From the NCBI GenBank assembly GCA_902517795.1, contig CABYDR010000003.1, positions 1-63,398 on the forward strand: a DNA stretch of 63,398 bases, given 5' to 3'. Below, one piece after another: positions 16,975 through 41,248 of the stretch (positions are counted from its first letter, which is position 1; every line of letters begins with the position of its first letter). A model generated the notes under the pieces. It did not search any database. It saw nothing but the letters and a program-made list of their open reading frames with translations, and was not told where the DNA came from. A program made the position numbers and the translations under genes. The DNA comes from an uncultured Woeseiaceae bacterium (lineage in GTDB: Bacteria; Pseudomonadota; Gammaproteobacteria; Steroidobacterales; Woeseiaceae).

Positions 16975-17268
16975 TTATTCAATTGCTTTAGTTATTCGAT
17001 CAGTTGCTTTTTTCAATTCAATCATTGAGCAAGCGTATGATAACCTAATATAACCTGGAGCACCAAAAGGTGTTCCTGGTACAACTACTACACCAGCTTT
17101 ATTAAGAATTAAAGCCGCAAGTTCGATATCATTTTTAAGATTATTTGATTGAATTGCTTTGTCTACTCTAGGAAATGCGTAGAAAGCTCCATCCGCATTA
17201 TTACACTCAAACCCTGGTATTTTATTTAGCGCTTTTATAATAAAGTCATTCCTTTTTTTTGTATTCAA
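16975..17268 (-). CDS. aspC: aspartate aminotransferase, C-terminal part (frameshifted)
   Basis: This frame encodes the last ~90 residues of the same aminotransferase whose first 302 residues are encoded at 17246-18154. It includes the small-domain sequence NADGAFYAFPRVD and the substrate-carboxylate arginine in GYIRLSYA. Read alone it has a TTG at 17268 but no Shine-Dalgarno and no independent function. Removing one A from the A8 tract at 17253-17260 joins both parts into a 392-residue enzyme of normal length. Either this is a sequencing or assembly error, or a real frameshift perhaps rescued by transcriptional slippage. Confidence 0.8.
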   Translation of the reverse strand: MNTKKRNDFIIKALNKIPGFECNNADGAFYAFPRVDKAIQSNNLKNDIELAALILNKAGVVVVPGTPFGAPGYIRLSYACSMIELKKATDRITKAIE

Positions 17269-18154
17269 TTACCATATTTTTAACACAATCTTGACTTCCA
17301 TTTATAGCTTCTGTGGCTGCAATCTGAGATATGCTAGATGGATTTGATGTTGACTGACTTTGCACTGTTTTCATTGATGTAATAATTTCTCTCGGGCCAC
17401 CAGCGTATCCTATTCTCCATCCAGTCATTGCGTAACATTTTGAAACACCATTTATTGCTACAACTCTTTTGTTGAGCTCAGGTACAACAGTACCGATGTT
17501 GTAAAATTTAGATTTTCCCCAATGAATTTTTTCATAAATATCATCGGAAGCAATAATTACATTTGGATAGTTAAGAAGAACATCTCCAATCTCAATTAAC
17601 TCTTTTTTTGTGTAACAGCTTCCTGTTGGGTTTGAGGGGCTATTTAAAAAAATTAATCTAGTTTTATTATTTAGTGAATCTTTAAGCATTTTGGGCGACA
17701 TTTTAAAATTACTTTCTATGCCTATGTCAATAAACCTAGGTGTAGCATCTGCAATTCTTACCATGTCTGGATATGAAACCCAATAAGGACTTGGGATTAT
17801 AGCTTCATCACCATGTTGAAGAAGCCCCATACAGAGATTAAATAATGTTTGCTTCGCACCACTTGAAACAATAATTTGATCATAATCATAGATTAGGTCG
17901 TTATCTTGTTTGAATTTATTTATAATTGCCTTTTTTAAAGTTAATGTGCCGTCAATGGCTGTATATTTTGTATGTCCATCTTTAATAGCTTTAATAGCAG
18001 CTTCTTTTATATGGAGGGGGGTGTCAAAGTCTGGCTCACCTGCACCAAGACTGATTATGTCCTTTCCTTCTTCTTTTAATTTTGCGGCAAGATTAAGAAC
18101 AGCACTTGTTGCTGAAGGTAATACTCTATTCATTCTTTCAGAAACTTGATGCAT
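17246..18154 (-). CDS. aspC: aspartate aminotransferase (class I PLP), N-terminal part, frameshifted
   Basis: Fold-type I aminotransferase of the Thermus/Rhizobium AspC group, which interconverts aspartate and oxaloacetate. Residues 1-300 show ISLGAGEPDFDTP, TKYTAIDGTLTLKKAI, NSPSNPTGS, the DDIYE motif and the PLP lysine Lys239 in NGVSKCYAMTGWRIGYAG. The frame then stops at a TGA just after an A8 run, before the C-terminal arginine needed to bind substrate. The missing part is present in the next frame (16975-17268). As written the product would be inactive. The start codon is only 22 bases from the divergent uvrB start. Confidence 0.88.
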   Translation of the reverse strand: MHQVSERMNRVLPSATSAVLNLAAKLKEEGKDIISLGAGEPDFDTPLHIKEAAIKAIKDGHTKYTAIDGTLTLKKAIINKFKQDNDLIYDYDQIIVSSGAKQTLFNLCMGLLQHGDEAIIPSPYWVSYPDMVRIADATPRFIDIGIESNFKMSPKMLKDSLNNKTRLIFLNSPSNPTGSCYTKKELIEIGDVLLNYPNVIIASDDIYEKIHWGKSKFYNIGTVVPELNKRVVAINGVSKCYAMTGWRIGYAGGPREIITSMKTVQSQSTSNPSSISQIAATEAINGSQDCVKNMVIEYKKKE

Positions 18155-26816: not shown

Positions 26817-28496
26817 ATGGTTAATAAGAATTTCAGAAAACATTCAAAAAAGATTGTAGACGGAGTTGAGCAAGCACCAAGCAGAGCTATGTTAAGAGCT
26901 GTTGGCTTTAGAACAAAAGACTTTAAAATTCCTCAGATTGGGATTGCTTCGACTTGGAGCATGATAACTCCATGTAATATGCATCTTAATGATCTAGCTC
27001 AGGAAGCTTCATCTGGCGTTGAAGAATCTGGTGCGAAAGGAATCATATTCAATACCATAACAGTGTCTGATGGAATCTCAATGGGAACTTCAGGAATGAG
27101 GTATTCATTGGTATCAAGAGAGATAATTGCAGATTCAATTGAGGCAGTTTCTGCGGCACAGGGTTTTGATGGATTAGTAACAATAGGTGGCTGCGATAAA
27201 AATATGCCAGCATGTGTAATGGCCATGGCGAGATTAAATCGACCCTCTGTGTTCGTGTATGGGGGTACAATAAAACCTGGACCTAATAAAACCGATATAG
27301 TCTCTGTTTTTGAAGCAGTTGGAGCTCTATCAAGTGGAAAAATTGATAATAATCAGTTTATTGAGGTTGAAAAAACAGCAATTCCTGGACCAGGAGCGTG
27401 TGGTGGAATGTACACTGCCAATACAATGGCATCAGCTATTGAGGCCCTGGGGCTAAGTTTAGCAAATAGCTCGGCACAAGAAGCTGTTTCAAATGAAAAA
27501 GTTCTTGACTGCCGTGAAGCAGGCAAGGCTGTTATGAATTTGATAAAAAAAGACATCAAACCTCTTGATATTTTATCAAAAGAGGCATTTGAAAATGCTA
27601 TTACTGTTGTGATTGCCCTTGGTGGATCAACTAATGCTGTGTTACATCTAATTGCAATGGCAAAAGAGGCAAATATTGATGTTTCATTAGATGATTTTTC
27701 TAGAATTGGTGCTAAGGTTCCTGTTTTGGCGGATTTAAAACCAAGTGGAAAATACTTAATGTCTGATTTAATAGCAATAGGAGGCATTCAACCGATTATG
27801 AAATCTCTGCTAAATAAAGGTTTATTGCATGGAAATTGCATGACAGTCACGGGAAAAACAATATCAGAGAATTTGGAACTAGTTCAAGGTTATCCTTCTG
27901 ACCAAAAAATTATTAGAGACTTTAGCAATCCAATAAAGAAATCTAGTCATTTAGAAATTCTATATGGAAATCTGGCTCCAGAGGGAGCAGTTGCAAAAAT
28001 CTCTGGTAAGGAGGGAACTTTATTTACGGGTAATGCAAAAGTCTTTGATTCAGAAGAGCTTGCAATGAAAGCCATATTGTCAGATCAAATTACAAAAGGC
28101 GATGTAATTATTATCAGATATGAGGGTCCTAAGGGTGGACCTGGTATGCGTGAAATGTTGAGTCCAACTGGAGCTATTATGGGCAAGGGGTTAGGATCTG
28201 ATGTTGCACTTATTACTGACGGAAGATTTTCGGGTGGAAGCCATGGCTTTGTTGTTGGTCATGTCTCTCCTGAGGCTATGGTTGGGGGCCCCCTTGCGTT
28301 AATTAAAGATGGAGATCAAATATCTATTGATGCTGAGAAGAAATCGATTGATATCCTTCTTGATGAGCTTGAGCTCATCGAAAGAAAAAAGAGATGGAAA
28401 AAACCAACTAAGGACGATGTTTCGGGTGTTTTAGCAAAATATCAATTATGCGTTTCTTCAGCATCAAATGGCGCTATAACGCTTCCTAAATCCTAG
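26817..28496 (+). CDS. ilvD: dihydroxy-acid dehydratase
   Basis: Iron-sulfur dehydratase that makes 2-oxo acids for valine, leucine and isoleucine synthesis. The 559 aa are typical of the shorter [2Fe-2S] type. Likely cluster ligands are Cys53 (MITPCNMHL), Cys126 (IGGCDKNMP) and Cys195 ([14 protein letters not shown]). The C-terminal half shows [14 protein letters not shown] and [23 protein letters not shown]. It stands on its own, between the dehydratase-like gene and a lysA-like gene, and is separate from the minus-strand ilvC-leu operon. The upstream 80 bases are nearly all A/T. Confidence 0.96.
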
Positions 28497-28528
28497 AGTT
28501 TGCTCGAAAACAATACAGGGAGAGAATT

Positions 28529-29653
28529 TTGTGGTGGATCAATAAAAAAGATGTTCTTTTAGATATCGCATCAAAGACATCCAACTGTATCGTATACAAT
28601 AAAAAATCCATTGAGAAATCAATCACAAAGCTTAAAGAGATCGAATCAATTGATCGATTGTTTTATGCAATGAAAGCCAATTTCAATCCCGAGATACTTC
28701 AAATTATTAATGAGTATGGTTTGGGATTTGAGTGTGTATCAACTGGAGAAATCAAACATCTTTATGAATCGATTCCCAATATAGATAAAAAAAAAATAAT
28801 CTATACTCCTAATTTTGCAGCGAGAGATGATTACATTTGGGCTATGAGTAATCAAATAATGGTGACGGTAGATAATCTATACCCGCTCATTAAATGGCCA
28901 GAAATTTTTAAAAACAAAGAAATCATGATAAGGATTGATCCTGGAAAAGGTGATGGTCATCATGATCACGTTATAACTGGAGGCAGTTTTTCAAAATTTG
29001 GTATTCCGTTATCGGATGTAGAGCAAATTATTGAGTTAAGCAAAAAATACAATATAAGCATAATTGGTTTGCATGTTCATAGCGGAAGTGGGATAAAAAA
29101 TATTTCAATTTGGCTCGATACGGCGAAAAAATTACTTGAATTATCAAAATTATTAAATGATGTAGAAATAATAAATCTCGGGGGTGGAATTCCAATAAAA
29201 GAAAAATTAGAAGAAAAAGAATTTGATTTGTGTACATTTGGTAAAAAGCTAAATAACTTAAAGACATCTTTTAAGAGCATTGAGATGTGGTTTGAGCCTG
29301 GGAGATATATCGTTGGAGAATCAGGCGTAATCACCACTCATGTTACACAGACTAAACAAAAAGACAATTATAAATATATAGGTATTGATATTGGTATGAA
29401 CGTGTTAATTAGGCCCGCTCTCTATGGCTCATATCATGAAATAGTTAATCTTACTAAATACAATCATAAACACACAAATCAGGTATCAATAGTGGGTCCT
29501 ATATGTGAGTCTGGTGACAAACTGGGTGAAAATAGAGCATTCCCAGACACTGATGAAGGTGATGTCATTCTAATTGCAAATGCAGGTGCATACGTGAGCT
29601 CTATGTCATCAGATTATAATCTTCGAGAAAAGCCTAAGGAATTAATAATATAA
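28529..29653 (+). CDS. lysA: diaminopimelate decarboxylase-like enzyme (LysA, LysAC-type)
   Basis: Fold-type III PLP decarboxylase that most likely makes lysine from meso-diaminopimelate. Lys49 in FYAMKANFNPE binds PLP; HVHSGSGI, NLGGGIP, EPGRYIVGESG and the GPICESGDKL motif follow in the expected order. The start is TTG 28529, six bases after GGGAG (28518-28522). The opening MWWINKKDVLLDIASKT and the RLFYAMKAN stretch resemble the decarboxylase half of the aspartokinase-DAP decarboxylase fusions of Xanthomonas-type bacteria, yet no kinase domain is present upstream. At 374 aa it is shorter than usual LysA (about 415). Another amino-acid decarboxylase specificity remains possible. Confidence 0.8.
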   Translation: MWWINKKDVLLDIASKTSNCIVYNKKSIEKSITKLKEIESIDRLFYAMKANFNPEILQIINEYGLGFECVSTGEIKHLYESIPNIDKKKIIYTPNFAARDDYIWAMSNQIMVTVDNLYPLIKWPEIFKNKEIMIRIDPGKGDGHHDHVITGGSFSKFGIPLSDVEQIIELSKKYNISIIGLHVHSGSGIKNISIWLDTAKKLLELSKLLNDVEIINLGGGIPIKEKLEEKEFDLCTFGKKLNNLKTSFKSIEMWFEPGRYIVGESGVITTHVTQTKQKDNYKYIGIDIGMNVLIRPALYGSYHEIVNLTKYNHKHTNQVSIVGPICESGDKLGENRAFPDTDEGDVILIANAGAYVSSMSSDYNLREKPKELII

Positions 29654-29662
29654 CAATTTAAT

Positions 29663-30721
29663 CTATTGTATTTTCATTAACAAATTAAGCAGAATATCAT
29701 TTTCATCTCTGGTGCCTATCGTGATTCGAGCAAATTCGCTCAAAGACGAGTATTTTAAAAATCCAATAATTATATTTGTATTCTTTAGAGTAGATTTAAG
29801 TTTATTTATATCATTGAATTTCACAAGCAAAAAATTTCCTTCACTTTGAAACACTTTATTCACAATAGTAAATTTATTTAACTCCTTGCTAACTCTTTCC
29901 TTCTCTTTTTTTATGAGATTAATTTGAGTTTTTGCATTATCAATGTTTTCAGGAGTTATTGAGTTTTTGATTAGCTCAATTGTTGGTGTAGCAAAACAGA
30001 AGGGAGGAAGAATTTTTTTTATAAATTCTGAAATCTCAGAATTTGCTATAATTGCCCCACATCTTACACCAGCAAGAGCATATGCTTTAGAGAGAGTTCT
30101 CAATATAATTAGATTTTCATAAGTATTTATCTTGGTTGTCATTGTTTTCAATTCGCTGAATTCAATATAAGCCTCATCTAAAACTACGATTGCCTTATTT
30201 TTAATACTTTTAAGAAGGTTCTCTATGTCAGTGTTTGATACGACCGCCCCTGTTGGGTTATTCGGTGAGGATATAAAGATTATCTTCGTTTTATCATTAA
30301 AGATTTTAGTTAATTTATTAACATCAAGACAGAAATCCTCACTTTCACATAAAGGCATTTCGTTTGTCTTTATAGAGTTTGCGTTTGCGAAAAATTTATA
30401 CATATCAAATGTTGGTGGTGATATGAGTATTTCATCTTTATATGGAATGCAAAATGTTCTCATAATTATATCGATTGCTTCCGTACTACCTCTGCTGATT
30501 GATATCTGATCATTACCGATATTATAAAATGTGGCTAATTCATTGATTAAATTCTGAGGTCTGGGGGACGGGTAACGATTGAGTGAATACTTATCTCTAT
30601 CTTTCCAGAGAGATTCTGGTGCTTCATTCGCATTTAGTCTAATGGCGCCAGATTCAGAAACAGGTACATTTATAGTTGGTAAATTCAATACCTCAGGCCT
30701 AACTAATTTTTTTATAGTCAT
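29663..30721 (-). CDS. hisC: histidinol-phosphate aminotransferase
   Basis: Class II-fold-I aminotransferase (352 aa) of the HisC family, acting on histidinol phosphate and often also on aromatic amino acids. Key features are IRLNANEAPESLW, NRYPSPRPQNLINEL, SRGSTEAIDIIMRTF, SSPNNPTGAVV, LDEAYIEFS and the PLP lysine Lys212 in RTLSKAYALAGVRCG. It is the last gene of the minus-strand branched-chain operon, 10 bases after leuB, and no other his gene lies here. That placement is unusual. Its stop is nine bases from the stop of the converging lysA-like gene, with no terminator between. Confidence 0.92.
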   Translation of the reverse strand: MTIKKLVRPEVLNLPTINVPVSESGAIRLNANEAPESLWKDRDKYSLNRYPSPRPQNLINELATFYNIGNDQISISRGSTEAIDIIMRTFCIPYKDEILISPPTFDMYKFFANANSIKTNEMPLCESEDFCLDVNKLTKIFNDKTKIIFISSPNNPTGAVVSNTDIENLLKSIKNKAIVVLDEAYIEFSELKTMTTKINTYENLIILRTLSKAYALAGVRCGAIIANSEISEFIKKILPPFCFATPTIELIKNSITPENIDNAKTQINLIKKEKERVSKELNKFTIVNKVFQSEGNFLLVKFNDINKLKSTLKNTNIIIGFLKYSSLSEFARITIGTRDENDILLNLLMKIQ

Positions 30722-30731
30722 ATACGAATAT

Positions 30732-31793
30732 TTAATTTATTTCATCGATGATAAGTTTTGTTATTTGCTCGGTACTTGAAACTTTATCATCTGCAGTAGC
30801 TATGTCTGCAGATCTTGTGCCATTTTCAATAACATTGTAAATAGCATTTTCAACATCAATTGCCTCTTCTTGGAGATTTAAGCTGTATCTTAATAACATC
30901 GCGATACTGGAGATCATTCCGCAGGGATTTGCAATTCCTTTTCCTGCAATATCTGGAGCAGAACCATGTATAGGCTCATATAGACCAACTTTATTATCAC
31001 CCAGTGAAGCTGATGGAAGCATACCAAGTGATCCAGACAGCATAGATACCTCATCGGTGAGTATATCTCCAAACATATTCTCTGTTACGATTACATCAAA
31101 ATCAGATGGTCTATTAATCAAATACATTGCTGCGGCATCAACTAGGATATGCTCGATATCTATGTGAGGATAGTCTTTTGCAATTATATTATCTGTTATG
31201 TTGCGCCAAAATCTTGATGTTTCAAGAACATTGGCTTTATCTACTGAACAAAGTTTATTCTTTCTTTTTGATGCAAGATCAGCAGCAATTTTAATGATTC
31301 TTTCTACCTCAAAATCATGATAAACACATAAATCACTGGCTTTATTTTCAGTTCTGTTTTTTTCGCCAAAATAAATACCTCCGGTCAGTTCTCTAATAAC
31401 AATAAGATCTACATCAATCAGTTTTTCTTCTTTTAGAGGTGATGCTTTAGCGAGTGATGGGTAAATAATAACGGGCCTTATATTCGCGAATACCCCAAGT
31501 GACCCCCTGATTCCTAAGAGACCTTGTTCTGGTCTTAATTTAGCGTTGGGGTTATCCCATTTTGGTCCACCAACTGCTCCAAGTACTACTGCATTTGAAT
31601 CTTTACAAGTGTCGATGGTCTCTTGAGGTAACGGTGAAGAGCAATTATCAATAGCTGAGCCACCAATAAGTTTTTCTTCAAATTTAAAATTATGATTGTA
31701 TTTATTTGCTATTAATTGAAGAATTTCTTTACCCGATCTTGCCACCTCAGGCCCAATTCCGTCACCTGGCAGAATTGTGATTAGGGCGTCCAT
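30732..31793 (-). CDS. leuB: 3-isopropylmalate dehydrogenase
   Basis: Oxidative decarboxylase of the third leucine step. The 353 aa start MDALITILPGDGIGPEVA, and show GAVGGPKWD, the LeuB-specific LRPEQGLLGIRGSLGVFANIRP with substrate-binding arginines, VRELTGGIYFG, and metal-binding aspartates in VTENMFGDILTDE and LYEPIHGSAPDIAGKG. An AGGAGA inside the 3' end of leuD lies seven bases before the ATG, and the two genes overlap by 13 bases. Confidence 0.97.
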   Translation of the reverse strand: MDALITILPGDGIGPEVARSGKEILQLIANKYNHNFKFEEKLIGGSAIDNCSSPLPQETIDTCKDSNAVVLGAVGGPKWDNPNAKLRPEQGLLGIRGSLGVFANIRPVIIYPSLAKASPLKEEKLIDVDLIVIRELTGGIYFGEKNRTENKASDLCVYHDFEVERIIKIAADLASKRKNKLCSVDKANVLETSRFWRNITDNIIAKDYPHIDIEHILVDAAAMYLINRPSDFDVIVTENMFGDILTDEVSMLSGSLGMLPSASLGDNKVGLYEPIHGSAPDIAGKGIANPCGMISSIAMLLRYSLNLQEEAIDVENAIYNVIENGTRSADIATADDKVSSTEQITKLIIDEIN

Positions 31794-32365
31794 AATCGTT
31801 TCTCCTCAAACTTTTCTATTAGATTAATGTTTCTTTTTAAATAACCAAGTTGATCGATACCTTCGATTAGACAATATTTTGAAAACTCATCAATCTCATA
31901 TTGAAATATTTCGTTGTTAGGCAATGTTAATTCTGACTTCTCAATGCAAATACTGAGATATGGGCGTGGAATATCCATTAGCATTGAGAGAATATCCTCA
32001 GTGACAACGATTGGTAAAAGACCATTCTTAAGAGAATTTCCTTTAAAAATGTCAGCAATTTTTGAGCTTATGACAACTTTAATCCCATAATCCAGTAAAG
32101 CCCATGGCGCATGTTCTCTTGAAGATCCGCAACCAAAATTATTTCCAGCAATAAGGATTTCAGAGCCTTCGTTATCATTTTTATTTAGAATAAAATTAGG
32201 ATCATCTGTACCATCTTCATTGTATCGCCAATCATGAAATAGATGTTTTCCAAGGCCTTTTTTTGAGGTAGTAGTAAGAAACCTAGCAGGAATTATTTGA
32301 TCCGTATCGACATCTTTACTTTTGAGCACAACTGCCTTGGATTTAATTTTTGTTAGTTTATTCAT
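31781..32365 (-). CDS. leuD: 3-isopropylmalate dehydratase small subunit
   Basis: Small subunit (194 aa) of isopropylmalate isomerase, partner of LeuC. The family motifs DVDTDQIIPARFLTTT, NFGCGSSREHAPWALLDYG and FKGNSLKNGLLPIV are intact. It begins two bases after the leuC stop and overlaps leuB, so leuC, leuD and leuB are coupled in translation. Confidence 0.97.
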   Translation of the reverse strand: MNKLTKIKSKAVVLKSKDVDTDQIIPARFLTTTSKKGLGKHLFHDWRYNEDGTDDPNFILNKNDNEGSEILIAGNNFGCGSSREHAPWALLDYGIKVVISSKIADIFKGNSLKNGLLPIVVTEDILSMLMDIPRPYLSICIEKSELTLPNNEIFQYEIDEFSKYCLIEGIDQLGYLKRNINLIEKFEEKRLWTP

Positions 32366-32367
32366 TT

Positions 32368-33774
32368 TTATAAGTATTTTCTGGGGTCAGCCACTTTGCC
32401 TTCAATTGCAGAGGCGGCAGCAGTTAGCGGGCTTGCGAGTATGGTTCGAGATCCTTTCCCTTGTCTGCCTTCAAAATTTCTATTACTTGTACTAACGCTT
32501 AATTTTCCGGAGTCAACTGTATCTCCATTCATACCTAAACACATAGAGCATCCAGATTCTCTCCATTCTGCTCCGGCTTCTTTAAATATTTTATTTAATC
32601 CTAGTCTTTCAGCATCAGCCTTAATTCTTTGTGACCCAGGTACTACAAGCATTTTAACATTGTTTGCAACTTTTCTATCTTTTAGGATATGAGCTGCAGC
32701 TTTTAAATCACTCAATCTCGAGTTTGTGCAACTGCCAATGAAGACAACGTCAACATCCTTATTTTGAAGTGATTTCCCAGGTGTAATTTCCATATAATCA
32801 ATTGCTTTATTGTGGGATGCATCACCATTAATTGGAATTGGATCATTTATGTTTACAACCATTCCAGGATTCGTACCATATGTCACCATTGGCTCGAGAT
32901 CTGCAGCGTTAATTTCGATATATTTATCGTATTTTGCATCAATATCACTTGACAGATTATTCCAATATTTTAACGCTAAATCCCAGTCATTTTCTTTAGG
33001 AGATCTGGGCTTGTCATATAAATAATTATAAGTAGTATCATCAGGAGCAATCATTCCTGCCTTTGCGCCTGCTTCGATTGACATGTTGCATATCGTCATA
33101 CGTTCTTCCATCGACATAGAAGATATTGTATTTCCGCGATACTCAATAACATGACCTGTCCCACCATCAACTCCAAGTTTACCTATGATAGCTAACACCA
33201 GATCTTTAGCAGTTACGCCATTATTAAGATTGCCATTGATTTCCACAGATAAGGTTTTCTGTTTACGCTGCAGTAAACATTGAGTTGCCAAGACATGACC
33301 AACCTCGGTAGTTCCGATACCAAAAGCTAGAGCACCGAATGCTCCATGAGTACTGGTATGACTGTCACCACAAACAATTGTCTTTCCTGGTTGGGTTAAT
33401 CCTAATTCGGGTCCAATTACGTGGACAATTCCTCTGTTGATGCTATCAAAGTCAAATAGTTCAATATTAAATTCCTTACAGTTAGAGATCATTTGTCTTA
33501 CCTGATTTGCAGCATCAGCACCTGCAACTTCAATATCTTTGAATTTGTTTACAGGTAGTGTGGGCGTAGAATGGTCCATTGTGCCAATAGTTGATCTAGT
33601 CTTTCTTACTTTAAGAGAATTTTCTCGTAACATTGTGAAAGCTTGAGGTGTAGTAACTTCATGAATAAGATGAAGATCAATGTATAAAATTGCTGGAGTG
33701 CTTTTAGTCTCTTGGAGGACGATATGGTCATTCCAAACTTTTTCAAAAAGCGTAAGTGGTGTTTTTTTGCTCAT
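32368..33774 (-). CDS. leuC: 3-isopropylmalate dehydratase large subunit
   Basis: Aconitase-family catalytic subunit (468 aa) with a [4Fe-4S] cluster. The cluster cysteines lie in FIGSCTNSRLSDL (near residue 346) and ESGCSMCLGMN (about 407 and 410). Other landmarks are the N-terminal TLFEKVWNDHIV, CGDSHTSTHGAFGALAFGIG and RNFEGRQGKGSRTILASP. It follows ilvE by nine bases in the ilvC-leuA-ilvE-leuCDB-hisC operon. Confidence 0.97.
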   Translation of the reverse strand: MSKKTPLTLFEKVWNDHIVLQETKSTPAILYIDLHLIHEVTTPQAFTMLRENSLKVRKTRSTIGTMDHSTPTLPVNKFKDIEVAGADAANQVRQMISNCKEFNIELFDFDSINRGIVHVIGPELGLTQPGKTIVCGDSHTSTHGAFGALAFGIGTTEVGHVLATQCLLQRKQKTLSVEINGNLNNGVTAKDLVLAIIGKLGVDGGTGHVIEYRGNTISSMSMEERMTICNMSIEAGAKAGMIAPDDTTYNYLYDKPRSPKENDWDLALKYWNNLSSDIDAKYDKYIEINAADLEPMVTYGTNPGMVVNINDPIPINGDASHNKAIDYMEITPGKSLQNKDVDVVFIGSCTNSRLSDLKAAAHILKDRKVANNVKMLVVPGSQRIKADAERLGLNKIFKEAGAEWRESGCSMCLGMNGDTVDSGKLSVSTSNRNFEGRQGKGSRTILASPLTAAASAIEGKVADPRKYL

Positions 33775-33783
33775 ATTAATTAT

Positions 33784-34707
33784 CTATATAGAGTCTAACC
33801 ATGAATACTTATCATCAGTTGAACCTGAGAACAATCCGAAAAATTTATCCTGAAGTTTTTTTGTAATTGGGCCTCTCTTTCCTTGACCTATAATAATTCT
33901 ATCTACCGATTTTATTGGCGTTATTTCTGCCGCCGTACCAGTAAAGAACATCTCATCAGCAAGATATAAAGATTCTCTATTTATTTCTTCTTCTTTTAAA
34001 TCGAACCCAACATCTTTTGATAGCTTAACAACCGTATCTCTTGTTATCCCTGTAAGTATTCCTGAAGAAGCTGGTGGTGTATAAATAACATCATCTTTAA
34101 CAATGAATAAGTTCTCTCCAGCGCCTTCAGATACTTTGCCGCTTGAGGAGAGCGCAATTCCCTCATCAAATCCAAGTCTTTTTGCTTCTGTGCTTATTAA
34201 GGTGCTAGAAAGATAGTTACCTCCAGCTTTAGCCATAGTAGGTATTGTATTTGGTGCAACTCTTTGCCAGCTTGATACACAAACTTCTACACCATTTTTA
34301 AGTGCATCTTCACCTAAGTAAGTTCCCCATTCCCATGCGGCTATTGATACATCCACCGGATGATCATCTTTAGGTGCAAGGCCAATTTCACCATATCCAC
34401 GAAATGCGATTGGACGAATGTAAGCCCCGTTATTTAATTCATTCTGTGTGATTATATCTTTGCATGCTTTTGTAAGATCAGCCCGAGAGTAGGGGATTTC
34501 CATGCGATAAATTTTTGCAGAATTATACAACCTAGAAACATGGTCTTGAAGTCTAAATATTTTTGGTCCATTCGGTGTTATATAGAGTCTAATTCCTTCA
34601 AATACAGAAGATCCATAGTGAAGCGCGTGAGAGAGTACATGAACTTTTGCATCCTCCCACTCAACTATTTGACCGTTATGCCAGATATAGTTTCCACCTT
34701 TGTACAT
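33784..34707 (-). CDS. ilvE: branched-chain amino acid aminotransferase
   Basis: Fold-type IV PLP aminotransferase (307 aa) for the last step of leucine, valine and isoleucine synthesis. VHVLSHALHYGSSVFEGIR opens the core, the PLP lysine is in MAKAGGNYLSSTLIS near 158, and the EGAGENLFIV and GTAAEITPI motifs follow. It starts 31 bases after the leuA stop. Having the transaminase between leuA and leuC is a less common arrangement and suggests one transcript for the whole leucine branch. Confidence 0.96.
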   Translation of the reverse strand: MYKGGNYIWHNGQIVEWEDAKVHVLSHALHYGSSVFEGIRLYITPNGPKIFRLQDHVSRLYNSAKIYRMEIPYSRADLTKACKDIITQNELNNGAYIRPIAFRGYGEIGLAPKDDHPVDVSIAAWEWGTYLGEDALKNGVEVCVSSWQRVAPNTIPTMAKAGGNYLSSTLISTEAKRLGFDEGIALSSSGKVSEGAGENLFIVKDDVIYTPPASSGILTGITRDTVVKLSKDVGFDLKEEEINRESLYLADEMFFTGTAAEITPIKSVDRIIIGQGKRGPITKKLQDKFFGLFSGSTDDKYSWLDSI

Positions 34708-34738
34708 AATATTTTCCTTGATTATCTATTTAATAAAT

Positions 34739-36307
34739 CTAAATTGGTGCTCTATGAATATTATTATTTTGGGGTGCTGATTTTATACCTTGTTTTTCAC
34801 GTCTTATAATTCTATTTATAACACCTAGGTAAGCTCTACTTCCTGCTTCAACTATATCAACACTTGTTCCTGAGCCTCTATATGATTGACCTTCATGTTC
34901 AACATTTACTGTTACTTCACCTTGTGCATCAGAACCTATTGTCGGGCTATGGAGATCAAACTTTTTAAGGGTCAGATTCACTTCTGTGATTTTTTTTATT
35001 GCGCTAAAGGCAGCTTCAACTGGACCAGAAGCGCTCATAGATTTTGAATAAACTGTACCTTTTTCATCGATAAGAGATACTTTTGCATTAGAAGGCTCTC
35101 CAGACAAGGAGTTGATCTCAAGTGATTTAAGTGTCCATGGTCCTCCAATTGAAGTATCAATATTCATAATCAATGCTTCTATGTCACCATCATAGATATC
35201 TTTTTTTGCATCTGCGAGATTTTTAAATTCTATAAATGCACTATTGATTTTATCGTCGTCAGCCTCGAAACCCAACTCTTCAACTCTCTTTCTGAAGGCA
35301 TGTCTTCCACTATGTTTTCCGAGCACAAGATTAGATTTACTGATACCGATGTCCTCTGGTTTCATTATTTCGTATGTAGAGCTGTGTTGAAGCATTCCAT
35401 GTTGATGAATCCCAGCTTCGTGTGCAAAAGCATTTTCACCGACGATTGCTTTATTTCGTGGTATTTGAATTCCTGTGACTGATGCAACCATTCTCGATGT
35501 TGGATAAAGTCTTTCTGATTTTATGTTGGTATCTAAATTAAAATGCTCTTTTCTTGTTTTTATTGCCATGACAATTTCTTCAAGTGAGCAATTTCCTGCT
35601 CTTTCTCCTATTCCGTTTATGGTGCATTCTATTTGTCTTGCGCCAGCTTTTACTGCAGCTAGACTATTTGCGACTGCCATTCCTAAGTCATCATGACAAT
35701 GCACACTCAAAGTAATTTTTTCTATATTTTTTACATTATTCTTTAAGTATCTGAATACACGATCAAATTCATCAGGAACAGTGTATCCAACTGTATCTGG
35801 TATATTGACTGTAGTTGCACCAGCCTCAATTGCTGCTGACACAACTTCAGCTAAGTATGAAAGCTCTGTTCTGGAGGCATCTTCTGGAGAGAATTCAATA
35901 TCATCACACAGGCTTTTTGCGAGAGATATTGATGAAACAGCATTTTTAATTATCTCTTCTTTCGCCATTTTTAGCTTGTATTCTCTGTGAATTGAACTAG
36001 TTGCGACAAAGACATGAATACGATGATTTTCAGAGCTTTTGACCGCATTGAATGCTTTATTTATATCATCTTCATTGCATCTAGCGAGGCCACATATGAT
36101 TGGCCCAAGATTTTGGTCTGCTATTTCTTTTACAGAGTTGAAATCTCCAGGCGAAGCCGCTGGAAAGCCAGCTTCAATTATATCAACATTCAGGTCGGTT
36201 AGAGCACGTGAAATCTTGAGTTTCTCACCAAGTGTCATACTGCAACCTGGTGCTTGCTCTCCATCTCTTAGTGTCGTATCAAAAATTTTTACATGACCAC
36301 TGTTCAT
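34739..36307 (-). CDS. leuA: 2-isopropylmalate synthase
   Basis: Commits 2-oxoisovalerate to leucine by condensing it with acetyl-CoA. The 522 aa hold an N-terminal TIM barrel with FDTTLRDGEQAPGCSM, SVHCHDDLGMAVANSLAAV and NGIGERAGN. A linker with HSGRHAFRKRVEELG comes next, then a C-terminal allosteric domain from about residue 390 ending in VEAGSRAYLGVINRI. Feedback inhibition by leucine is expected from that domain. It starts 12 bases after ilvC. Confidence 0.97.
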   Translation of the reverse strand: MNSGHVKIFDTTLRDGEQAPGCSMTLGEKLKISRALTDLNVDIIEAGFPAASPGDFNSVKEIADQNLGPIICGLARCNEDDINKAFNAVKSSENHRIHVFVATSSIHREYKLKMAKEEIIKNAVSSISLAKSLCDDIEFSPEDASRTELSYLAEVVSAAIEAGATTVNIPDTVGYTVPDEFDRVFRYLKNNVKNIEKITLSVHCHDDLGMAVANSLAAVKAGARQIECTINGIGERAGNCSLEEIVMAIKTRKEHFNLDTNIKSERLYPTSRMVASVTGIQIPRNKAIVGENAFAHEAGIHQHGMLQHSSTYEIMKPEDIGISKSNLVLGKHSGRHAFRKRVEELGFEADDDKINSAFIEFKNLADAKKDIYDGDIEALIMNIDTSIGGPWTLKSLEINSLSGEPSNAKVSLIDEKGTVYSKSMSASGPVEAAFSAIKKITEVNLTLKKFDLHSPTIGSDAQGEVTVNVEHEGQSYRGSGTSVDIVEAGSRAYLGVINRIIRREKQGIKSAPQNNNIHRAPI

Positions 36308-36319
36308 TTTAAATGCCTT

Positions 36320-37306
36320 TTATTTTTCAAGCCAATCCATTCTGCTTCTTAAGTCTGCACCGACTTTTTCGATGGGGTGTTCAAGATCATTATTCATCAT
36401 TCTCTTGAATTCAGGTTGACCGTCATCATTTTCATTTATCCAATTTTCTGCAAATTTACCTGTTTGAATATCCTCTAATATATCTTTCATTTTGTTTCTG
36501 GCATGCTCATCAATCACTCTCGGGCCACTTACAAGATCACCGTATGCAGCTGTGTCACTTATGAATTCATGCATTTTCTTTAACCCACCCTCATGCAGTA
36601 AATCAACAATTAATTTTAACTCGTGCATGCATTCATAATAAGCAACTTCAGGTTGGTATCCGGCATCAACTAATGTTTCATATCCAGCTACAACCAGCTC
36701 AGTGGCGCCTCCACAGAGAACAGCTTGTTCACCAAATAAATCTGTTTCTGTTTCTTCTGCAAATGTAGTTTCAATTACTCCTGCTCTGGTTCCACCAATA
36801 CCATGTGCATAAGCTAGGGCGAGATCAAGTGCTTTGCCACTTTTATCATGCTCTATAGCTACCAAGCAAGGAACACCATGACCTTCCTTATATTGTCTTC
36901 TGACAAGACCCCCGGGTCCTTTAGGAGCAATTAAAAAAACATCAAGATCATCTCTAGGCTTGATTCTTTTGTAGTGAATATTGAATCCATGTGCAAATAC
37001 AATCGCAGCATCTTTTTTGATAGATTGCTCTATATTTTTGTATATATTTTCTTGCGTCATGTCAGGAGTAAGAAACATTATGATGGATGCATCTTTGACC
37101 GCGTCATTTGGCTCTTTAACATCCAAACCATCCGATATAGCTTTATCCCAGCTAGCACCACTTCTCCTCAATCCAACAACAACATTGATACCGCTATCCT
37201 TAAGATTTAACGCATGAGCTCGACCTTGACTTCCATAACCTAGAATTACTATTTTTTTTTCTTCAAGTATTGATGGGCTTACATCTTGTTCAGAGTACAT
37301 TCTCAT
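36320..37306 (-). CDS. ilvC: ketol-acid reductoisomerase, class I
   Basis: Class I (short, 328 aa) reductoisomerase of the valine/isoleucine pathway. The nucleotide-binding motif is [16 protein letters not shown], and the specificity loop reads [11 protein letters not shown], which points to NADPH. Metal-binding residues lie in the [12 protein letters not shown] and [15 protein letters not shown] region. It is the first structural gene after an attenuator-like leader (leader peptide at 37406-37507 and terminator at 37341-37378), and an AAAGGA lies nine bases before its ATG. ilvB/ilvH (acetohydroxyacid synthase) are not in this window. Confidence 0.97.
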
Positions 37307-37340
37307 TTTTATGATCCTTTAATTTTTGTAATGAGTTTAT

Positions 37341-37378
37341 AAAAAAAAACCCCACATTCTTTTTTCTGAAAGCGGGGT
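37341..37378 (-). terminator. intrinsic terminator/attenuator in the ilvC leader
   Basis: Read on the minus strand, ACCCC (37378-37374) pairs with GGGGT (37353-37349). The inner stem TTC/GAA is interrupted by two mismatches, and a run of nine Ts follows (37349-37341). The terminator lies 27 bases after the leader peptide stop and 35 bases before the ilvC ATG. A terminator between promoter and first gene only makes sense as a conditional attenuator. Confidence 0.82.
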
Positions 37379-37405
37379 CAATAATATTTTTGTATAAGTA
37401 TTAAC

Positions 37406-37507
37406 TCAACCCGTTTTCCTTTTCACGAGTAATAATAGAGATAGGCAGATCAGATTGATATACTGATTTGCTAATATTACCGCTATTTGTTTTGTTAAAA
37501 TATTCAT
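37406..37507 (-). CDS. branched-chain-rich leader peptide of the ilvC-leu operon
   Basis: A 33-codon ORF, ATG at 37507 and TGA at 37408-37406, with 15 of 33 residues Ile, Leu or Val. The control block near the end reads Leu-Ser-Leu-Leu-Leu-Leu-Val (codons CTA TCT CTA TTA TTA CTC GTG, 37444-37424). It is followed by Lys-Arg-Lys-Thr-Gly and stop. An intrinsic terminator starts 27 bases later. GGGTT at 37412-37408 can pair with GACCC at 37379-37375, which would prevent terminator formation. This is the layout of classical ribosome-mediated attenuation, as in E. coli ilvGMEDA and leuABCD. No clear Shine-Dalgarno is visible. It is too short for standard gene callers. Confidence 0.8.
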   Translation of the reverse strand: MNILTKQIAVILANQYINLICLSLLLLVKRKTG

Positions 37508-37517
37508 AATATTGCTA

Positions 37518-37546
37518 ATGATGTTTTATTGAAAGATTGTTGTCAA
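37518..37546 (-). promoter_or_regulatory. probable promoter of the ilvC-leu operon
   Basis: On the minus strand a perfect TTGACA (37546-37541) is followed after 17 bases by CATCAT (37523-37518), a 4/6 match to the -10 box. Transcription would begin around 37511-37510, only a few bases before the leader peptide ATG. That fits the lack of a Shine-Dalgarno there and would make the leader message nearly leaderless. Confidence 0.5.
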
Positions 37547-37567
37547 CATCTTGTTGTTATGAAATAT

Positions 37568-37595
37568 AGCATACAGATGCTGTGTTTTAGCATCT
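37568..37595. promoter_or_regulatory. operator-like inverted repeats between ilvC leader and acyl-CoA dehydrogenase
   Basis: AGATGCT (37575-37581) and AGCATCT (37589-37595) form a perfect 7-base inverted repeat with a 7-base spacer. An overlapping AGCAT-N4-ATGCT lies at 37568-37581. Together with the leader and terminator, these account for most of the 387-base non-coding stretch between ilvC and the acyl-CoA dehydrogenase. The regulator is unknown. Confidence 0.45.
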
Positions 37596-37693
37596 AGAGA
37601 AAGTGCTAGAAAATTAATCATAAATTCGTCTAAAGGAAAATAAAGCTAGCTAATAATAGATAAAATTAATTACTAAAATGAGGATACCAGCCA

Positions 37694-38908
37694 ATGAATT
37701 TTGAATATACCAATAAAATCAATGCTTTAATTAATAAAATTAATGTATTTATGGATAAATTCATATATCCAAATGAGCAGGTTTATTTTGAAGCGATTGA
37801 GTCATCTAAATCACGCTGGAATATTCCATCAGTAATTGAAGAAATTAAAGTTGAGGCAAAAAAAGCAAATTTGTGGAATTTATTTCTTCCTGATAGTGAA
37901 TATGGTGCTGGGCTTTCTAATCTAGAATATGCGCCATTGGCTGAAGTAATGGGCAGAAGTTTTATAGCACCCGAGGCTTTTAATTGCTCTGCTCCAGATA
38001 CAGGCAATATGGAGGTATTTGTTAGATATGGTACGAAAGAGCAAAAAGAGAAATGGTTGGAACCGCTATTGAATGGAGAGATTAGATCTGCTTTCGCGAT
38101 GACTGAGCCAAATGTTGCATCATCAGATGCTACAAATATTGAATCTACAATAACGGCTGACGGAGATGATTATATTATTAATGGCCATAAATGGTGGACT
38201 TCAGGAGCGATGGACCCAAGATGCAAAGTAATAATATTCATGGGAAAAACTGATCTCAATGCTGACAGATATTCTCAACAATCAATGGTAATTGTTCCAG
38301 CTGATATTCCTGGGGTGAAAACTGTAAAACCATTGAGTGTATTTGGTTATGATGATGCCCCTCACGGTCATGCTGAGATAATATTTAAAGATGTCCGTGT
38401 ACCAAAAAAAAATATATTACTCGGTGAGGGTAGAGGTTTCGAGATCGCACAAGGCAGGCTCGGTCCGGGAAGAATACATCATTGTATGAGGTTGATTGGT
38501 CTAGCTGAAAGAGCATTCGAATTAATGTGCAAAAGAGCCAATCAGAGAGAAGCGTTCGGTAAAAAAATTTCTGAACAAGGTGTTGTAAGAGAAATGATTG
38601 CAAAATCACGAATTGAAATTGATCAGGCTCGACTTTTAACTCTAAAGGCTGCTGATATGATGGACAAGTACGGCAATAAAATTTCAAAAAAAGAAATCGC
38701 AATGATAAAGATAGTTGCACCCAATATGGCAACTAATGTGCTAGATAGAGCTATTCAAATTCATGGGGGGGCAGGAGTTAGCGGTGAGTTTCCCCTCGCT
38801 GCTGCTTGGGCAATGGCAAGAACACTAAGATTGGCAGACGGTCCTGATGAAGTCCATCTGGCTCAATTAGCAAAACTTGAACTTGGTACGCAACAAATAA
38901 AAAATTAA
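37694..38908 (+). CDS. acyl-CoA dehydrogenase family protein (ACAD10/11-like)
   Basis: FAD-dependent acyl-CoA dehydrogenase of 404 aa. The N-terminal helical domain contains [21 protein letters not shown]; the beta domain has [18 protein letters not shown] and the [10 protein letters not shown] segment. The C-terminal domain shows [15 protein letters not shown] and [34 protein letters not shown] (in parts). The GPDEVH ending and overall pattern resemble the ACAD10/11 group that handles branched or hydroxylated acyl chains. Substrate cannot be read from sequence. It is monocistronic by position; electrons would go to the EtfAB pair encoded 7 kb downstream. AGGA lies nine bases before the ATG. 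Confidence 0.9.
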
Positions 38909-39096
38909 TTCGAACTAGTGATATAAATTTTTTTTATGCTATCCTTACTTCAGTTAAAATAAAGATTTGTAAAGATATTAACTCAATAATCATTTTTAAC
39001 TTGATTTATAATTAAAAAAAAACATAATAATGTTCAAAGAAGATTGTGAATTCAAGGTAGTTAGAAATTAATTTAAAAAACTTTTAAGGAGTGCCC

Positions 39097-39888
39097 ATGA
39101 ATCGGTGCATAAAATATATTTTGACAATCAGGGTGATGCTAACAATTATGTTTAGTTCAATTTTTGTCAATGGGGGAGCATTTGCTCAAACAGTCGATGA
39201 TGTCTTAGTGGCAGATGCAAAAAGATTACAGCTTGCACAGGCATCTCAAGAGCGAATCAATGAGACTGTAGATGGTACAAGAACACTTACTGATCAATAT
39301 CGTGCAATTAACAAGGAAATTGATGGTTTAAAAGTCTACAACCGCCTTATGACAGCACAAGTTCAGGGTCAAGAAGCGACTCTTGAGGATATTAAAATTT
39401 CTATGGATCAAGTTGATGTAATCAACAGGCAAATTTTTCCACTGATGGAAAGAATGATTGATGGTCTTGACCAATCAATAGCGTTGGACATTCCGTTTCT
39501 TAAAGAAGAGCGTGTTGGCCGAATTGACGGATTAAAATCACTCATGTCTAGATCAGATGTCAGTGTCGCCGAAAAATTCAGGAAAGTGATGGAGGCTTAT
39601 CAAATAGAACTTGACTACGGGTCATCAGCAGAGTTTTATAAGCAATCTCTGGATCTCGGAAGTGACTATGGAGTGAGAGACTATAATATGCTTAGAGTAG
39701 GAAGAATTGGTCTTTATTTTCAATCAGATGATTCTTCAATTACTGGAATTTGGGATGTAGATCAAAATGCGTGGGTGGTTGATGATGAATATCGCTCAGA
39801 GATTAGGAAAGGTTTAAGAATGGCCAGGCAGCTTATAGCACCTGAGTTACTCTTGATTCCTGTTCAAGCAGCTAAGGAGGCTTCTTAA
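39097..39888 (+). CDS. DUF3450 periplasmic coiled-coil protein of TonB operon
   Basis: Secreted 263-residue protein of the DUF3450 family, regularly found at the head of TonB2/TtpC-type operons in marine gammaproteobacteria. A signal peptide covers about residues 1-30 with likely cleavage after GGAFA-QT. It is followed by a coiled coil (about 35-110: KRLQLAQASQERINETVDGT onward) and a compact C-terminal domain with GLYFQSDD and GIWDVDQNAWV. ATG 39097 is preferred to GTG 39091 because AAGGA at 39086-39090 is correctly spaced only for the ATG. Its biochemical role is unproven; a scaffold for the ExbB/TtpC complex is a reasonable guess. Confidence 0.88.
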   Translation: MNRCIKYILTIRVMLTIMFSSIFVNGGAFAQTVDDVLVADAKRLQLAQASQERINETVDGTRTLTDQYRAINKEIDGLKVYNRLMTAQVQGQEATLEDIKISMDQVDVINRQIFPLMERMIDGLDQSIALDIPFLKEERVGRIDGLKSLMSRSDVSVAEKFRKVMEAYQIELDYGSSAEFYKQSLDLGSDYGVRDYNMLRVGRIGLYFQSDDSSITGIWDVDQNAWVVDDEYRSEIRKGLRMARQLIAPELLLIPVQAAKEAS

Positions 39889-39889
39889 T

Positions 39890-41248
39890 ATGACTAGAAC
39901 TATATTTACATTATTGATGCTGGTATTTACATCCGGTCAGCTCAATGCACAAGAAGATGCTTCTTCAATGTCTGAGCTGTTAAGGCAGATTGAACAAGGA
40001 CAGGCCAGAGACTCTGTTGAGGCTCAAAACAGAGAAAAACGTTTTCAGGTAGCGAGAAATGAGCAACAAAGGCTTCTTAATAATTCTCGTGCTGAAAGAA
40101 AAAGAGAAGAAGATAAAAGTCAAAAGCTCGAAGATACTTTTGCAAAAAATCAACAATTAATCGTCGATGCAAGAGCAGCATTAGATAAGAGGCTTGGTGC
40201 TTTAAAGGAGCTTTTTGGAGTACTTCAAACAGTTTCTGGTGATGCTCAAACTCGATTTAATGGTTCTCTCACAAATATCCAGTACCCTAATCGTGAAGCC
40301 TTTTTGGTTGAGTTGGGTAGTAAGATGGCAAGTGCTAGCACACTCGCATCGATACAAGATATAGAGGGCTTATGGTACGAACTTCAAAGAGAAATCACAG
40401 AACAGGGTAAGATCGTTAAATACCAAACAGAATATGCAACCGCTGACGGTGAAAGAATTACATCTGATGTAGTAAGAGTTGGTGTTTTTAACTTAGTTTT
40501 TGAAGATGGATATCTGCAATACGATAGCACTACTGGTAATGTGACAGAACTACAACGTCAACCAGACCAATCACAATATACAAACTCTGCAGAAGATATA
40601 ATGGAAGAATCTAGTGGTTATGTTGGTTTCGGTTTAGATGTTACCAGAGGCGGTATATTAGCGTTGTTGGTTGAGTCTCCAACTATTACTGAAAGAATTA
40701 ATCAAGGTGGAATTGTTGGTTATTGTATAATTGCGCTCGGTCTTGTTGGTTTATTCATAGCAATATGGAGATGGTTATCTTTAAGTAAGGACAGCAAAAA
40801 GGTTACAGCACAATTATCAAGTCAAACTGCATCAAGTGATAATCCTCTAGGAAGGGTTCTGTCTGCATATGATGAAGCAAAAGGCGCAGATACAGAGACA
40901 GTCGAGCTTAAATTAAGTGAAGCTGCATTAAAAGAAATGCCCAACCTTACAAAAGGTTTGCTTTTTATTAAAGTGATTGCAGCGGTTGCTCCACTTATGG
41001 GTCTTCTTGGAACAGTAACCGGAATGATCAAAACATTCCAGGTAATTACTCTTTATGGTGCTGGTGATCCTAAGCTAATGGCTGGGGGTATTTCTCAAGC
41101 GCTTATGACAACAGTACTTGGACTTTGCGTTGCAATACCAATGGTACTTCTTCACACAGTTGTGAGTGGCCAGAGCAGAAAGATTATCAATATACTTCAA
41201 TCTCAGAGCGCTGGAATTGTTGCAAAACATTCTGAGGCTAATGATTAA
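39890..41248 (+). CDS. TtpC-like ExbB/MotA/TolQ proton channel protein with long periplasmic domain
   Basis: 452 aa. Signal peptide at 1-20 (cleavage near QLNA-QE), a long charged coiled coil at about 25-110, and a periplasmic domain with EIEG-like GLWYELQREITEQGKIVKYQ follow. A first membrane helix lies near residue 275 (GYCIIALGLVGLFIAIW). The MotA/TolQ/ExbB core comes last, with VIAAVAPLMGLLGTVTGMIKTFQVI and ALMTTVLGLCVAIPMVLLHTV. This build is that of Vibrio TtpC, the extra subunit of the TonB2 system that passes proton motive force to TonB. It begins one base after the DUF3450 stop and precedes a plain ExbB. Confidence 0.9.
   Translation: MTRTIFTLLMLVFTSGQLNAQEDASSMSELLRQIEQGQARDSVEAQNREKRFQVARNEQQRLLNNSRAERKREEDKSQKLEDTFAKNQQLIVDARAALDKRLGALKELFGVLQTVSGDAQTRFNGSLTNIQYPNREAFLVELGSKMASASTLASIQDIEGLWYELQREITEQGKIVKYQTEYATADGERITSDVVRVGVFNLVFEDGYLQYDSTTGNVTELQRQPDQSQYTNSAEDIMEESSGYVGFGLDVTRGGILALLVESPTITERINQGGIVGYCIIALGLVGLFIAIWRWLSLSKDSKKVTAQLSSQTASSDNPLGRVLSAYDEAKGADTETVELKLSEAALKEMPNLTKGLLFIKVIAAVAPLMGLLGTVTGMIKTFQVITLYGAGDPKLMAGGISQALMTTVLGLCVAIPMVLLHTVVSGQSRKIINILQSQSAGIVAKHSEAND

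Follow-up and report, generated by a model that had tools for sequence, protein, structure and literature searches.

Attenuation of the leu and ilv operons is classical. In E. coli and Salmonella, the two operons have separate leaders, each with an ordinary 5' untranslated region (UTR) and a Shine-Dalgarno sequence. The leu and ilvGMEDA leaders of these bacteria encode peptides rich in the product amino acids, pit an antiterminator against a terminator, and use biased Leu codons, and the element described below shares all of these features. In a 2004 comparative study of proteobacterial attenuators by Vitreschak and others, ilv attenuators were reportedly also predicted in xanthomonads. According to the passages available from PMC1183508, the leu attenuator of S. 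typhimurium uses CUA Leu codons, attenuator codons are chosen for how sensitive their tRNA isoacceptor is, and CUA is the codon most suitable for leu in E. coli.

Leader peptides that are translated from leaderless RNAs have been published outside the Gammaproteobacteria. The available passages of PMC8079986 describe leaderless leader peptides for ilvL and leuL of S. lividans, and those of PMC5784534 describe one for the ilvB leader of C. diphtheriae. Like the peptide described here, these actinobacterial peptides are short and rich in Leu, Ile and Val, and they are found upstream of ilvB, leuA or leuS. They differ in phylum and operon and in that their start sites were mapped, whereas the start site here is predicted; in addition, LeuL1 of S. 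lividans is presented in those passages as being without a typical intrinsic terminator, unlike the element described here. In S. meliloti, the RNA of the trpL attenuator (rnTrpL), which controls a biosynthetic operon, begins with the trpL ATG according to the passages available from PMC7298713. S. meliloti is, however, an alphaproteobacterium and its attenuator belongs to trpE(G); the nearer comparison is with the trp leader of the lineage studied here. The starts of LeuL and TrpL of C. jejuni were also mapped, and in the available passages of PMC11955535 they are not called leaderless. In titles and abstracts from a literature mostly without subscription papers, we recognized no gammaproteobacterial leader-peptide attenuator of the leaderless kind, and that literature apparently holds nothing that joins Woeseia, attenuation and leader peptide.

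The locus analyzed in this study lies on the minus strand of a 63,398-nucleotide stretch of DNA (hereafter the window) from a reduced-genome genus allied to the Woeseiaceae (Gammaproteobacteria). In contrast to E. coli and Salmonella, one leader here heads both ilvC and the leucine genes, and the leader open reading frame (ORF) stands at or near the predicted 5' end of the RNA. The xanthomonad-like ilvC leaders that we examined (L090 and L104) likewise carry a Leu/Ile/Val block, and their hairpins upstream of ilvC are similar; L104 differs in that its ATG is some 34 nt past the likely -10 hexamer (judged by eye) and its leuA is 3 kb from ilvC. Leaderless attenuators have already been published for Actinobacteria and Sinorhizobium, and the near-leaderless build of two attenuators in one gammaproteobacterial family is part of what makes the present case of specialist interest.

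The leader element and the genes behind it

On the minus strand, a -35 hexamer TTGACA (37541–37546) is followed, after a spacer of 17 nt, by a -10 hexamer CATCAT (37518–37523), whose form in the family is mostly CATNAT. Ten nt past the -10 hexamer, with no Shine-Dalgarno sequence before it, begins the ORF of a leader peptide, MNILTKQIAVILANQYINLICLSLLLLVKRKTG (37406–37507; ATG at 37507, TGA at 37408–37406), which consists of 33 codons plus the stop codon and in which 15 of the 33 residues are Ile, Leu or Val. The codons for the amino acids that the operon produces are clustered in this short ORF as CTA TCT CTA TTA TTA CTC GTG (Leu-Ser-Leu-Leu-Leu-Leu-Val, 37424–37444). Four arms on the same strand define the hairpins. 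Arm 1, ACUCGU (37425–37430), is the partner of arm 2 when arm 3 is lacking and is a possible anti-antiterminator. Arm 2, ACGGGU (37409–37414), lies directly 5' of the leader stop codon. Arm 3, ACCCCGCUUUC (37368–37378), is common to the antiterminator and the terminator. Pairing of CGGG in arm 2 (37413–37410) with CCCG in arm 3 (37376–37373) forms the base of the antiterminator, and GUUAAUA (37405–37399) paired with UAUUGAC (37383–37377) forms its upper part (37377–37405). Arm 4, GAAUGUGGGGU (37349–37359), is the 3' arm of the terminator and leads into a tract of nine Ts (37341–37349), the first of which overlaps the stem and can pair. The intrinsic terminator thus placed between the leader ORF and the first structural gene has its arms at 37378–37368 and 37359–37349, and the whole leader region is bounded by ilvC (start 37306) and a divergent acyl-CoA dehydrogenase-like gene (start 37694). 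Direct reading confirmed what a preliminary description of this DNA had listed: a TTGACA/CATCAT promoter candidate on the minus strand, a 33-codon ORF with 15 Ile/Leu/Val residues and a Leu-Ser-Leu4-Val block, and an intrinsic terminator with nine Ts ahead of ilvC.

Seven minus-strand genes, which are at most 31 nt apart or overlap as in one operon, follow the terminator. They are ilvC (ketol-acid reductoisomerase, 36320–37306; NF004017, 523 bits with a cut-off of 336), leuA (2-isopropylmalate synthase, 34739–36307), ilvE (branched-chain aminotransferase, 33784–34707), leuC (32368–33774), leuD (31781–32365), leuB (30732–31793) and, as the last gene, one for a hisC-like aminotransferase (29663–30721; TIGR01141, 301 bits with a cut-off of 276.6). 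The five genes from leuA to leuB each matched NCBIfam models above the cut-off. From comparison of sequences, we consider it very probable that the leader is a ribosome-mediated transcription attenuator that responds mainly to charged Leu-tRNA and to a lesser degree to Ile and Val, and that controls ilvC-leuA-ilvE-leuCDB-hisC.

In the proposed mechanism, transcription would begin no more than a few bases away from the leader AUG, and the ribosome would initiate at the 5' end without a Shine-Dalgarno sequence. When leucine is ample, the ribosome would reach the stop codon and cover arm 2, arms 3 and 4 would form the terminator, and RNA polymerase would leave at the T tract. When charged Leu-tRNA is scarce, the ribosome would stall in the Leu block, typically 14–17 nt before arm 2; arm 2, left free, would pair with arm 3, the terminator would be blocked, and the operon would be read. 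Without a ribosome the leader is predicted to fold into the terminator, with off as the default state. Such an attenuator would supply a regulator for operons that have none in sequence annotation, and it would mean that a lineage with a reduced genome has kept a tuned amino-acid switch.

Conservation in the family and the order

The evidence for an attenuator from the window alone is modest. The terminator hairpin has a folding energy of -15.8 kcal/mol (z -4.45), which none of 200 shuffles equaled, and a terminator scan of 28000–40000 does not list this hairpin. The same interval contains 36 promoter-like sites, fewer than the 47.3 found in shuffles, the pattern of a promoter with a close ATG is expected by chance 0.65 times in the window, and the helix of arms 2 and 3 as it stands in the window is within chance (p 0.265 against shuffles). 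Values of this kind are compatible with a terminator that is constitutive or yields only a short RNA, a Leu-rich ORF that is a fortuitous hydrophobic frame, and an ilvC that is transcribed from another promoter. Given the modest statistics of the window, the case for attenuation rests on conservation in relatives. The joint retention of promoter, leader and terminator in the family, the covariation of antiterminator pairs and the bias of Leu codons to particular synonyms, for which the counts are given below, make this alternative very improbable.

The host genome measures 1.27 Mb and is scored 66% complete. Among the best 80 matches of a longer list, which may lack records very similar to the window, the IlvC proteins from named genomes that came nearest were those of Woeseiaceae and unclassified Gammaproteobacteria, with a top identity of 81% (genome AG-313-J15). 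Genomes of the host genus are 1.1–2.0 Mb in size and their ilvC loci have a GC content of 37–39%, while genomes of other genera in the family are 1.4–5.4 Mb in size and their ilvC loci have 51–63%. Upstream of ilvC, promoter, leader and terminator were read, as far as the sequence reaches, in five genomes of the same genus and at four loci from other genera, of which one reaches only from the terminator on, where its contig ends.

A covariance model (R1) was built from 35 family leaders, the alignment comprising 35 of 36 leaders because L022 has no match to the terminator pattern. R1 matched 87 of the 107 family genomes at E below 1e-6 (counted from the table) and 95 of them at E ≤ 0.01; the weak matches are mixed, and at least that of G001 is a different element, a trp leader. 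Relatives without the leader, which the preliminary description had named as grounds for giving up the idea, proved rare where genomes are nearly complete: 44 of these 45 family genomes had a match at E ≤ 0.01. Relatives without a match do exist, 12 of the 107 in all; 11 of these are below 90% complete, and in the two R1-negative genomes that were checked for ilvC (G025 and G035) this gene was also not found. The single R1 match in the host genome is the one in the window. Of the 30 best matches, 29 adjoin ilvC, and the 30th locus has no ilvC in its 1674 bases. A -35 hexamer of TTGACA or TTGACT at a spacing of 17 nt was present in 37 of 37 rows, one row being a duplicate. Two strong or outlying matches were also observed: in G018, a family member with a divergent IlvC, the match (C6, 9114–9236) lies 1.7 kb upstream of ilvC (at 10984), and G107 contains a second strong match (C145, 3013–3121).

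Throughout the order, R1 matched 81 of 147 genomes at E ≤ 0.001, family members included. Behind 20 matches, mostly outside the family, the gene was ilvC in eight cases and leuA in seven (L173, L174, L177, L178, L179, L185 and L187). Further matches preceded an ilvA-like gene followed by leuA (L175 and L176) or an ilvD-like gene (L180), both named by eye, and trpE (L191), and one (L192) has no relevant gene behind it and looks like a false match. Other families of the order have attenuators of the same kind that precede leuA, an ilvA-like gene plus leuA, or an ilvD-like gene in place of ilvC.

Terminator and antiterminator

The preliminary description had proposed an alignment across related genomes. 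That alignment shows that relatives keep the Leu-rich ORF, the terminator and the antiterminator, and that each of the two stems contains pairs whose bases have changed on either side. In 35 leaders, the terminator pairs form in 97.6% of cells and in at most 54.7% when slid by 1–3 columns; three pairs are changed on both sides, compared with 1.5 in shuffles. The antiterminator pairs form in 78.4% of cells and in at most 48.8% when slid. Their covariation score is 0.212 (0.138 in shuffles) and 35 cells are doubly changed (17.7 in shuffles), while two of the five covariation measures are not above shuffles, namely the pairs changed on both sides (7 vs. 5.9) and the pair types (18 vs. 17.5). The base of the antiterminator is nearly invariant and little informative, and the covariation sits in the upper part. 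Because the longer hairpin was specified from the fold of one relative, these counts lean towards its register; the upper helix of the window is in a register shifted by two. RNAalifold, applied to the alignment of arms 2 and 3, gave only four basal pairs, without covariation.

When arm 4 was removed, the minimum-energy fold of the window contained the upper helix GUUAAUA:UAUUGAC (z -2.74). After the same removal, the six-base core of arm 3 had three or more of its bases paired upstream in 34 of the 35 leaders from the family and in 20 of 22 leaders of other groups, with mean z values of -1.1 and -2.6, respectively, and with a partner other than arm 2 in some. In other groups of the order, the helix of arms 2 and 3 extends to as many as 13 perfect pairs. 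Leader by leader, it was better than shuffles (p ≤ 0.05) in 13 of 52, a set from which L050, L065, L075, L078, L080 and L084 were left out. Full leaders folded to the terminator in 34 of 34 cases (L006 and L037 were left out, and L022 was without the core), and the default state without a ribosome should therefore be off. When arm 3 was absent, arm 2 found a partner upstream in the leader in 31 of 34, and the position of this arm 1 varied. Across the family, then, there is an antiterminator that shares arm 3 with the terminator and is exclusive with it, although the helix of the window on its own is within chance. The competing GGGTT/GACCC pairing proposed in the preliminary description can be extended: it is the foot of what may be a longer antiterminator (CGGG:CCCG plus GUUAAUA:UAUUGAC).

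Control codons and their spacing

Leu accounts for 25% of leader residues in both the large-genome and the small-genome groups, and the codons used for it differ. With the ilvC genes of the same genomes as the expectation, large-genome leaders (31 rows, one of them a duplicate) contain 84 CTT (24.8 expected) and 50 CTG (107 expected), and 23 further loci, five of which repeat leaders already counted, contain 82 CTT (18.9 expected). The six small-genome leaders contain 13 CTA (4.3 expected) and 3 CTT (14.3 expected); in the window overall, 25% of Leu codons are CTT, which is common there, and 14% are CTA. Because three of these six leaders hardly differ from one another, the codon shift rests on few independent lines. 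As judged from these counts, the Leu codon bias fits the isoacceptor-sensitivity idea in the available passages of PMC1183508. The control codons seem to have changed with genome composition, from CTT in GC-rich relatives to CTA in the AT-rich genus, a change by which nature itself would put to the test the theory that, among synonymous codons, attenuators employ the one most sensitive to starvation.

Between the last Ile/Leu/Val codon and the CGGG of arm 2 there are 13 nt in the window, and 13–18 nt in 29 of the 34 leaders from the family and in 10 of 16 other-group leaders. In these counts L006 and L037 were left out, L008 has no CGGG in range, and three of the 16 other-group rows (value 4) stem from picking an earlier GCGGG. 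The stop codon follows arm 2 after 4–5 nt in 29 of the 34 leaders from the family, but after 19 nt in 10 of the 16 other-group leaders. As the distance between control codons and arm 2 is kept though the distance to the stop codon differs, arm 2 follows the control codons, not the stop. Judged by the ribosome footprint as generally known, the control codons are placed such that a stalled ribosome would free arm 2 and a ribosome at the stop codon would cover it.

Codon choice and spacing also bear on whether the ORF might encode a functional small hydrophobic peptide whose residues, rather than codons, are under selection. The products are indeed Leu/Ile/Val-rich peptides of 21–36 aa. Their N-terminal halves, however, look unrelated between genera, their length varies from 21 to 36 codons, the choice among synonymous Leu codons is biased (as in the 84 CTT against 24.8 expected), and arm 2 mostly stays at its distance from the control codons, so we rate selection on the peptide itself as highly unlikely to account for the ORF. 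By analogy with peTrpL of S. meliloti, as described in the available passages of PMC7298713, the peptide may have an additional function. The preliminary reading of the element as a ribosome-mediated attenuator thus draws support, by comparison, from family conservation, covariation, codon bias and spacing. Least probable of all is a ligand- or protein-binding leader (a riboswitch, a T-box or the site of a regulator protein) that drives the same terminator: such leaders are generally known to control amino-acid genes elsewhere, but within the window only three tRNAs reach the Rfam gathering score, with no leader family, T-box or riboswitch among them and with matches of the leader at E ≤ 10 far below the family thresholds, and the conserved stretch as aligned consists of the coding block and two hairpins.

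Near-leaderless starts of the ilvC and trp leaders

Transcription usually starts some 7 nt downstream of a -10 hexamer. All 54 non-redundant ilvC leaders that were scored in the family have 6–13 nt between the -10 hexamer and the ATG (6 nt in 4 leaders, 7 nt in 8, 8 nt in 35, 10 nt in 5, 12 nt in 1 and 13 nt in 1), so that the predicted 5' UTR is 0–6 nt long in the family and, from the 10 nt in the window, 3–4 nt long there. By this spacing, transcription would start at or near the leader AUG. For the count, L012 was scored at its in-frame ATG (8 nt; a GTG sits 2 nt past the -10 hexamer) and L006 at 13 nt, the duplicate L037 was dropped, and L172, from the same genome as L010, was missed by the pattern. 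None of the 54 leaders has a Shine-Dalgarno-like motif, compared with 34 of 36 ilvC starts. The 23 loci outside the first script, 18 of them with previously unseen leaders, all have TTGACA, a spacer of 17 nt and a gap of 7–8 nt. In L006, from a sister genome that is 99% complete (G004), the first ATG after the -10 hexamer gives MKKI, four residues, and then a stop; the second ATG overlaps this stop and opens a Leu-rich frame 24 nt past the -10 hexamer.

The trpE leader of the family is built alike. In 18 of 18 strong loci, TTGACN, 17–18 nt, NATACT and then 6–10 nt lead to the ATG of a Trp-rich frame, an example of whose peptide is MNARINNWWWQPVKEGAAG, and a terminator-like hairpin and a T tract are found downstream in those read. 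These 18 (L193–L210) were the strong ones among 22 loci, the other four being weaker and paralogue-like, and L191 and L194 are in the same genus. The script covered gaps of 4–11 nt, and TrpE was assigned by family match below the curated cut-off. With a freer promoter search, the best-scoring promoter of L194 was 64 nt upstream, in an equal score class, and another start was chosen for L197, L202 and L206. In the host genome, trpE had no match.

By eye, a close leader start was also recognized in two other families (L175 and L176; L179, L182, L185, L187 and L189), and UTRs of some 25–40 nt in L173, L181 and L188. The leaderless promoter pattern is not in excess genome-wide in the host (5 matches vs. 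3 when reversed), and we therefore make no claim that leaderless starts are general in the host genome. What the preliminary description took for an oddity, the near-leaderless start of the leader ORF, turned out to be a conserved trait of the ilvC leaders that the trp leaders share. We lean, with some reserve, to the view that Woeseiaceae and some sister families possess amino-acid attenuators built on leaderless leader peptides, with the ilvC-leu and trpE leaders both opening on the first base of the RNA or a few bases from it. If so, the sensor would be a ribosome that starts on a bare 5' AUG, attenuation would be tied to leaderless initiation and its control, the arrangement would be unlike the E. 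coli paradigm, and the leaderless state would have persisted through genome reduction. Two attenuators of near-leaderless build in one gammaproteobacterial family would also offer a testable system for the coupling of leaderless translation to transcription.

Extent of the operon and the place of hisC

A single leader over ilvC and the leucine genes had been regarded as unusual. It is usual in the family, if not universal: among 17 family loci spanning ilvC to leuB, leuA lies between them in 15 and ilvE in 11. In L118 and L119, ilvC and leuA are about 1.1 kb apart, and leuA is absent from the ilvC-ilvE interval in the same-genus loci L113 and L115 and in L039.

The gene hisC directly follows leuB in the window and in the five same-genus loci that reach that far (L039, L111, L113, L114 and L115), and in no family locus seen outside the small-genome genus. 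In G013 and G016, hisG, hisD and hisC follow leuB in a row, and in larger relatives the his gene set can sit some kb downstream. Among nine genomes of the small-genome genus, one of them 99% complete and one 93%, hisG was found in none, hisF above the cut-off in none (with one sub-cut-off match, in G002) and hisD in one (G007), while 14 named control genomes had hisG in 13, hisF in 14 and hisD in 13. In G015, a genome of another genus that is 96% complete, hisG and hisD were not found. Since hisG was found in none of the nine genomes of the genus, control of histidine synthesis by the leader is unlikely. HisC has probably been retained there as an aminotransferase with another role, such as one in aromatic amino acids. 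The gene hisC would come under the leader, as the preliminary description had it, in that it is the last gene of the operon; the adjacency is confined to the small-genome genus and carries no likely role in histidine control. The operon hisC is 33–41% identical to either the his-operon hisC or a paralogue in larger relatives. Retention of the operon hisC where hisG, hisF above the cut-off and, in all but one genome, hisD were not found may point to histidine auxotrophy and a re-used aminotransferase in the genus. Elsewhere on the minus strand of the window, 17165–18070 gives a weak match to the hisC-family aminotransferases that runs over several stop codons; an aminotransferase gene may have decayed or been truncated here, or the alignment may continue past the end of a 302-aa frame (17246–18154).

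Other candidate leaders

Histidine and acetolactate synthase loci were also inspected for leaders. Two of ten hisG loci have a frame with at least four His (51–58 aa); the His residues are scattered, and the frames were not taken as leaders. By eye, no leader was seen in the 330 nt upstream of 12 acetolactate synthase loci (L131–L142). In these loci, the gene for the large subunit of acetolactate synthase apparently diverges from a frame for the small subunit (MRHVISV-like, by eye), and a conserved TATTGCAATG-like element lies between the divergent frames of the two subunits.
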